Part shown: piece after piece, positions 12,181 through 12,898 of the stretch
Layout of the letters: each line of letters opens with the position of its first letter
Numbering within the stretch: the stretch's first letter is position 1
NCBI GenBank assembly: GCA_938023865.1
Contig: CALJDG010000062.1
Span: forward strand, 1-34,179
Origin: an uncultured archaeon
GTDB lineage: Archaea > Thermoproteota > Bathyarchaeia > Bathyarchaeales > Bathycorpusculaceae
Direction: 5' to 3'
DNA: 34,179 nucleotides
The notes under the pieces: model-generated
What the model was told of the DNA's origin: nothing
Databases searched by the model: none
What the model saw: only the letters and a program-made list of their open reading frames with translations
Program-made: the position numbers and the translations under genes

Positions 12181-12898
12181 ATGGTGCAAAATTTGGAGAG
12201 AGACTGGGAACGGCTAATTGAGAGTCTGATAAAGGAGGGTATACTTCGCTCTCCGAAAGTGATTAAGGCAATGCGTAAAGTATCAAGAACAAAGTTTCTT
12301 CCAGAAAACATACAGTCCTACAGCGCTGTGGACACCCCTCTTCCAATTGGCTTTGGGCAGACAGTTTCGGCGCCACATAGCTTCGGTTCACGGTCGAGCT
12401 AGGCGAGACATGGTTGCGATAATGAATGAAGCCCTCCAATTGGAAGTAGGCAACAAAGTACTAGAAGTTGGGGCAGGTTCAGGTTGGCATGCCGCTACAA
12501 TAGCCGAAATAGTGGCGCCCAACGAAACGCCTAGAAGCGAGTGGGGTCACGTTTACACAATCGAAATAATCGAAGGTCTTGCGGACTTCGCGAGAAGAAA
12601 CATCATGAAATCCGGATTCGGAGATCGAGTCACAATAATCTGCGGAGATGGCTCCATGGGATACCCGGAAAAAGCGCCGTACGATAGAATAGTTGTTACA
12701 GCGGCTGCCCCAGATATACCAAGACCTCTAATCGAGCAACTAAAAAACGGCGGAATAATGCTCATTCCAGTTGGGAGTATACACTTATTCCAAAGTTTAA
12801 TTAGGGTTGTGAAGGGAATTGATGGAAAAATCGCACAGGAGAATTTAGGTGGTGTTGCTTTCGTGCCTTTAACTGGACGTTATGGACACAAACTCTAG
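12181..12898 (+). CDS. pcm: Protein-L-isoaspartate O-methyltransferase, interrupted by a candidate 31-nt intron
   Basis: Repairs isoaspartyl residues in damaged proteins with S-adenosylmethionine. Exon 1 (12181-12376) encodes the N-terminal helices and [15 protein letters not shown]; exon 2 (12408-12898) continues with MVAIMNEAL, the methyltransferase motif [25 protein letters not shown] and the C-terminal [14 protein letters not shown]. Unspliced, the frame is broken: frame 1 stops at 12402 and the rest lies in another frame. Removing 12377-12407 gives a continuous 228-residue protein of normal family length with the conserved GQTxSAPHMVAIM motif intact. ATG at 12181 is preferred; GTG 12121 is in frame but lies in a hairpin and adds non-family residues. 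Confidence 0.85.
12377..12407 (+). other. Candidate bulge-helix-bulge intron in pcm (31 nt)
   Basis: The junctions form an archaeal splicing motif. Central helix: CGCC (12371-12374) with GGCG (12402-12405), 4 bp. 5' bulge: ACA (12375-12377). Intron helix: TAGCT (12378-12382) with AGCTA (12397-12401), 5 bp, with a 14-nt loop. 3' bulge: AGA (12406-12408). Cutting between the second and third base of each bulge removes 31 nt and joins CCAC to ACATGG, giving Pro-His-Met-Val in frame, exactly the family sequence. The outer exon helix is weak (one G-C pair then mismatches), so this is the relaxed HBh' form. The tRNA splicing endonuclease is the expected enzyme. Confidence 0.8.

Follow-up and report, generated by a model that had tools for sequence, protein, structure and literature searches.

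A bulge–helix–bulge insert in the pcm gene of Bathyarchaeia and its probable removal as an archaeal mRNA intron

How can a gene whose reading frame is broken within a conserved motif specify a complete enzyme? The question is raised by pcm in a 34,179-nucleotide (nt) stretch of DNA from an uncultured Bathyarchaeia archaeon (GCA_938023865.1, contig CALJDG010000062.1, forward strand; hereafter the window), whose MAG comprises 1.65 Mb and is 80% complete. Read as it stands, the gene falls into two open reading frames (ORFs; 12121–12402 and 12347–12898), and a Pfam search of the unspliced window placed the two halves of PF01135 in different frames (12208–12384 and 12407–12880). A first-pass annotation had attributed the break to a 31-nt bulge–helix–bulge (BHB) intron, and re-reading of the sequence recovered every element of the proposed structure at its claimed position, all on the forward strand. 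The exon side of the central helix (CGCC, 12371–12374) pairs with its intron side (GGCG, 12402–12405), the 3-nt bulges ACA (12375–12377) and AGA (12406–12408) lie on opposite strands, and the arms TAGCT (12378–12382) and AGCTA (12397–12401) form the intron helix. Cutting between the second and third bases of each bulge (AC/A and AG/A) takes out exactly 12377–12407 and joins GCG CCA C to AC ATG GTT, giving SAPH-MVAIM, such that the predicted intron is in phase 1 within the His codon of SAPHM. Exon 1 (12181–12376) would then comprise 65 codons from the ATG at 12181 plus the first base of the His codon, and exon 2 (12408–12898) the remaining methyltransferase up to the TAG stop at 12896–12898. 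The earlier description of a relaxed BHB with a weak outer helix held for the relaxation and needed correction for the helix: the intron helix has five to six or more pairs, and the outer helix is a single G–C pair (12370 with 12409), so the motif is relaxed and would need an endonuclease of broad specificity.

Joining of the exons in silico yielded a 228-amino-acid (aa) protein-L-isoaspartate O-methyltransferase (PIMT). The spliced protein passed the curated cut-offs of TIGR00080 (218 bits against 159) and PRK00312 (236 against 188), whereas the unspliced fragments fell below both (52 and 152 bits for TIGR00080; 50 and 172 bits for PRK00312); it stayed just under the cut-off of the narrower PRK13942 model (272 versus 282 bits). 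With the spliced protein as query, exon 1, which holds the first piece of PF01135, gave a 96% match, and exon 2, holding the second piece (E 3.3e-46), a 99% match over residues 66–228. An Rfam search gave no match at the insert, and a tRNA search of the whole window found none. Elsewhere in the window, a 331-aa ORF on the reverse strand (3278–4273), for which no Pfam match was found, lies antisense to the forward ORFs 3237–4022 and 4035–4943.

To follow the insert among relatives, we searched them with the spliced protein and took from each genome the stretch that spans codons 58 to 75. This yielded 74 distinct intron-bearing pcm alleles with inserts of 20–46 nt (20–48 nt with loci added later), and 39 distinct uninterrupted alleles, a few of them bacterial. 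The site was identical in all 74, between the first and second bases of one His codon, and all 74 shared one geometry: the central helix spans 4 bp, each of the opposite strands carries a 3-nt bulge, and the first pair of the intron helix is always formed. The middle C of the 5′ bulge and the final A of the 3′ bulge were likewise present in 74/74 alleles. Intronless alleles differ from intron-bearing ones by the exact absence of the insert.

A covariance model of the structure (R1) matched 112 of the 257 genomes of the class and, outside it, six genomes from other families of the phylum (f33, four in f34, and f43), whose junctions we read and found to have the same BHB geometry with inserts of 23–34 nt. 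The match at the window itself (12364–12419, E 4.6e-13) is not independent because the model contains the window's own sequence. Weak matches in G439, G425 and G474 and at a second place in G095 (E 0.005–0.008) encode no pcm and were taken as chance. The intron is thus spread across the class and into other classes, and is no peculiarity of one gene.

Insert length varied between lineages. Family f10 carries minimal pcm introns of 20–22 nt, inserts in f17 of the same class reach 48 nt, and the longer introns of L236 and L237 (genomes G202 and G203) and L156 (G083), at 46–48 nt, contain GC-rich extra hairpins. Within the window's own family, many genomes of genus g12 (G013, G048, G058, G064 and G070–G072) matched PIMT very weakly (E about 1e-4 to 1e-6) or not at all; in these genomes pcm may be absent or replaced.

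Does the RNA structure itself matter? Folding of the single sequence gave an MFE z-score of −0.32 and an MFE structure that was not exactly the BHB; this neither supports nor excludes the motif, and evidence beyond chance was therefore taken from comparison. In a 50-sequence alignment, the proposed structure had standard pairs in 97.6% of its cells, compared with 82.0% after shuffling and at most 42.5% when the partners were slid, and the covariation score was 0.540 versus 0.219. Seven of the ten pairs had changed on both sides, among them each of the six pairs of the intron helix. The central helix, paired in 100% of the 50 sequences, is nearly fixed as CGCC/GGCG and becomes CACC/GGUG through double changes in G079 and G098, and also in f34 and G202; among the 74 alleles, 71 have GGCG and three GGTG, and both alleles with CACC carry GGTG. 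The alignment check proposed in the first-pass annotation thus found the insert site conserved in all 74 alleles and the helix changes compensatory. Together, these comparisons indicate that the RNA structure is under selection.

Because half of the central helix is coding sequence, the structure ties the codons of the exon. At the junction, GCG encodes Ala in 73 of the 75 intron genes but in only 16 of 35 intronless orthologues (p 6e-10); elsewhere in the intron genes, GCG accounts for 18.7% of Ala codons. For the split His, all intron genes (75/75) use CAC, compared with 179/342 of the other His codons in those genes, which suggests that the single outer G–C pair matters. Synonymous sites are accordingly frozen beside the intron, at 12371–12409 and in relatives (GCG for Ala, CCA or CCT for Pro, CAC for His); codon usage alone can therefore flag intron-bearing pcm genes.

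The protein sequence is constrained as well. Nei–Gojobori omega was 0.02–0.19 in both exons of most close intron-bearing pairs, similar to intronless pairs (the pair L093/L094 had too few synonymous changes for a usable value), indicating purifying selection on exon 1 and exon 2 alike. The spliced frame is open in all 75 genes, and the proteins are about 217–231 aa long unless the contig ends. Unspliced, every allele meets an in-frame stop, including the 12 whose insert length is divisible by three, and the position of the stop ranges between −43 and +17 with respect to the ATG of exon 2; there is therefore neither a readthrough form nor a fixed geometry for reinitiation. The annotation had named degenerate pcm genes in relatives as something that would tell against its proposal; the relatives do not carry them.

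Taken together, the data very probably mean that the pcm insert is an archaeal pre-mRNA BHB intron, spliced by the tRNA-splicing endonuclease and RtcB into a working PIMT mRNA. By this mechanism, the endonuclease would cleave the pcm pre-mRNA after the second base of each 3-nt bulge, an RtcB-type ligase would join the CCAC end of exon 1 to the ACATGG start of exon 2, the intron would come free, perhaps in the form of a small circle, and the joined mRNA would be translated into the full-length methyltransferase.

Other explanations account for parts of these observations. The broken frame would lead automatic annotation to mark pcm as a pseudogene, and an isolated insert could be a sequencing or assembly error. 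Yet inserts at the same site recur in over 100 independent genomes, among them many independent MAGs and several single-contig chromosomes, which excludes the assembly artefact that the annotation had raised against itself; the low omega of both exons and the covariation of the structure complete the comparative data by which this reading is refuted, and we give it practically no weight. A more elaborate possibility is that pcm is a split gene with translational coupling, in which exon 1 ends within the insert, translation restarts at the ATG of exon 2 and the two polypeptides assemble. Exon 2 indeed begins AC-ATG with GGCGA before it, which together with the GGUGA variant could act as a Shine–Dalgarno (SD) sequence, and the GGUGA of a few alleles matches the anti-SD even better. 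Against this, 71 of 74 alleles keep GGCG rather than GGUG, and GGUG occurs almost exclusively with the compensating CACC, a pattern that SD function does not predict. Nor does the scatter of exon-1 stops around the ATG offer any coupling geometry, and coupling leaves aside the covariation of the upstream intron helix, the constant 3-nt length of both bulges and the fixation of the split His codon as CAC, all of which make such an arrangement highly improbable.

Programmed ribosomal bypassing, in which the ribosome hops over a structured insert, has precedents in T4 gene 60 and the mitochondrial byps, and the pcm inserts resemble these in being short, structured, variable in length and frame-breaking. 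The codons do not fit, however: AAC, GAC, TAC or CAC precedes the landing ATG, and the take-off codons, which would be CAT, CAG, CTT and others, do not match. Bypassing would also place H, Q or L at this residue in different alleles, whereas every allele encodes His once spliced, like the intronless orthologues, and bypassing leaves the exact BHB geometry unexplained; we consider it just as improbable as coupling. Splicing remains the reading that we adopt.

Are the presumed splicing enzymes encoded in these genomes? The endonuclease domain PF01974 was present in 40 of the 41 relatives searched, and most complete genomes encode it twice, in paralogues of about 190 aa. The first paralogue has its closest matches in the crenarchaeal catalytic chains 2cv8, 3p1z_B and 3ajv_B; the second matches archaeal endonucleases and lacks the His of the first one's EHAPY motif, which fits catalytic and non-catalytic subunits of an alpha–beta heterotetramer. 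Endonucleases of the heterotetramer type have been linked to relaxed BHBs and to cbf5 splicing (PMC2738675). In the 80% complete MAG of the window, a search found the catalytic PF01974 copy and no second subunit. RtcB was found in all nine genomes tested, including that of the window.

A positive control is available within these genomes: the window's MAG carries a BHB-like insert in cbf5, a gene of the dyskerin/TruB family (L181, G000:C105:35700–37300), and so do 18 of 20 related genomes (L182–L200), with inserts of 18–31 nt. The insert lies within the codon for the catalytic Asp (the D of GHGGTL-D-P), in the window's MAG and its relatives alike, which is where introns have been published for crenarchaeal cbf5. 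Crenarchaeal cbf5 introns have been assigned to this Asp site, and their splicing has been confirmed by cDNA in several species (PMC2738675). In the open-access literature we found no statement of an intron in Bathyarchaeia cbf5. Breakpoints near the catalytic Asp of cbf5 were also seen in many further families of the phylum.

To gauge whether such a motif exceeds chance at the scale of a genome, we ran an unsupervised scan of 1.2 Mb of the congener G001 for BHBs with 3+3-nt bulges that were also the local MFE structure, at −8 kcal/mol or below, and whose removal rejoined two coding frames. The scan returned six candidates, of which pcm was the best by energy (−19.1 kcal/mol) and cbf5 the third; five decoy bulge geometries put through the same scan returned 1, 1, 2, 3 and 1. 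The other four candidates look like adjoining separate genes, such as a 3-hydroxyacyl-CoA dehydrogenase beside an enoyl-CoA hydratase or an RHH antitoxin beside a PIN protein, and were rejected on inspection. A looser first scan had given 138 candidates, mostly spurious, and had missed pcm, probably by requiring an upstream stop in the frame of exon 2.

How old is the intron? On a tree of spliced PIMT proteins, its presence requires 8 changes among 106 rows and 10 with more rows; a careful 71-row tree also requires 8 (bootstrap 7–9). The 71-row tree places the intron-bearing rows in one clade (96/81), except for a lone long f33 branch, and the same clade holds scattered uninterrupted genes. 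The tree is weakly rooted and the number of changes does not by itself separate gain from loss; the two were distinguished by parsimony. Most simply, the intron would be old, gained once ahead of the diversification of Bathyarchaeia, retained by most lineages and exactly lost several times. Exact, scarless absence was observed in scattered Bathyarchaeia (L005, L007, L011, L014, L035, L038 and others), several of them inside intron-bearing clades, as if the loss had passed through a spliced copy.

The closest known system is the crenarchaeal cbf5 intron (Watanabe 2002; Yokobori 2009, PMC2738675), which is likewise a short intron in a protein gene (16–44 nt in cbf5) with a relaxed BHB cut between bulge residues 2 and 3, as predicted for pcm. 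In both, a conserved motif is interrupted between the first and second bases of one codon, that of the catalytic Asp in cbf5 and that of a His in pcm, and both appear to combine an ancient gain with lineage-specific losses in lineages that have a hetero-oligomeric endonuclease. They differ in sequence, lineage and product, a pseudouridine synthase in one case and PIMT in the other, and splicing is proven for cbf5 and predicted for pcm. Archaeal pre-tRNA and pre-rRNA BHB introns share the cleavage geometry and the presumed enzymes, splicing endonuclease and RtcB; the pcm intron, by contrast, lies in an mRNA and has no tRNA or rRNA context, homing endonuclease or Rfam match. A BHB in the mRNA of Haloferax HVO_1309 is also processed by the splicing endonuclease, but it is an intron of the 5′ untranslated region (UTR), where frame restoration is not needed (PMC7714728).

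Previous work has described archaeal coding pre-mRNA introns as confined to cbf5 (PMC4810243) and cbf5 of some crenarchaea as the sole archaeal gene with a coding BHB intron (PMC7714728), and has mentioned unconfirmed intron predictions in other genes (PMC2738675). The first-pass statement that none was known in pcm agrees with our finding no report of a pcm intron in the open-access literature. The mechanism is therefore a known one; to judge from that literature, its occurrence in this gene and this lineage is new, as is the depth of its conservation.

Why the introns persist invites speculation. In pcm and cbf5 alike, an active-site codon is interrupted behind its first base, so protein repair by PIMT and RNA pseudouridylation would be available only where tRNA-splicing capacity exists. 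The two introns might then be no neutral relics; selection might keep them as a checkpoint that couples expression to splicing in Bathyarchaeia and their relatives. We regard this as unlikely; if true, the multiple exact losses would mark lineages that escaped the checkpoint.

Spliced as we propose, pcm would be the second deeply conserved archaeal protein gene with a splicing intron, and its comparative set is far larger. In well over a hundred MAGs the gene would be overlooked or annotated as a pseudogene, and the covariance model can now be used to seek further such introns. As cbf5 of these genomes also has an intron, at the position known from crenarchaea, the age and active-site placement of archaeal mRNA introns become testable. 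The pcm insert would thereby represent an ancient mRNA intron outside Desulfurococcales and Sulfolobales, and offer a natural series of gains and losses.
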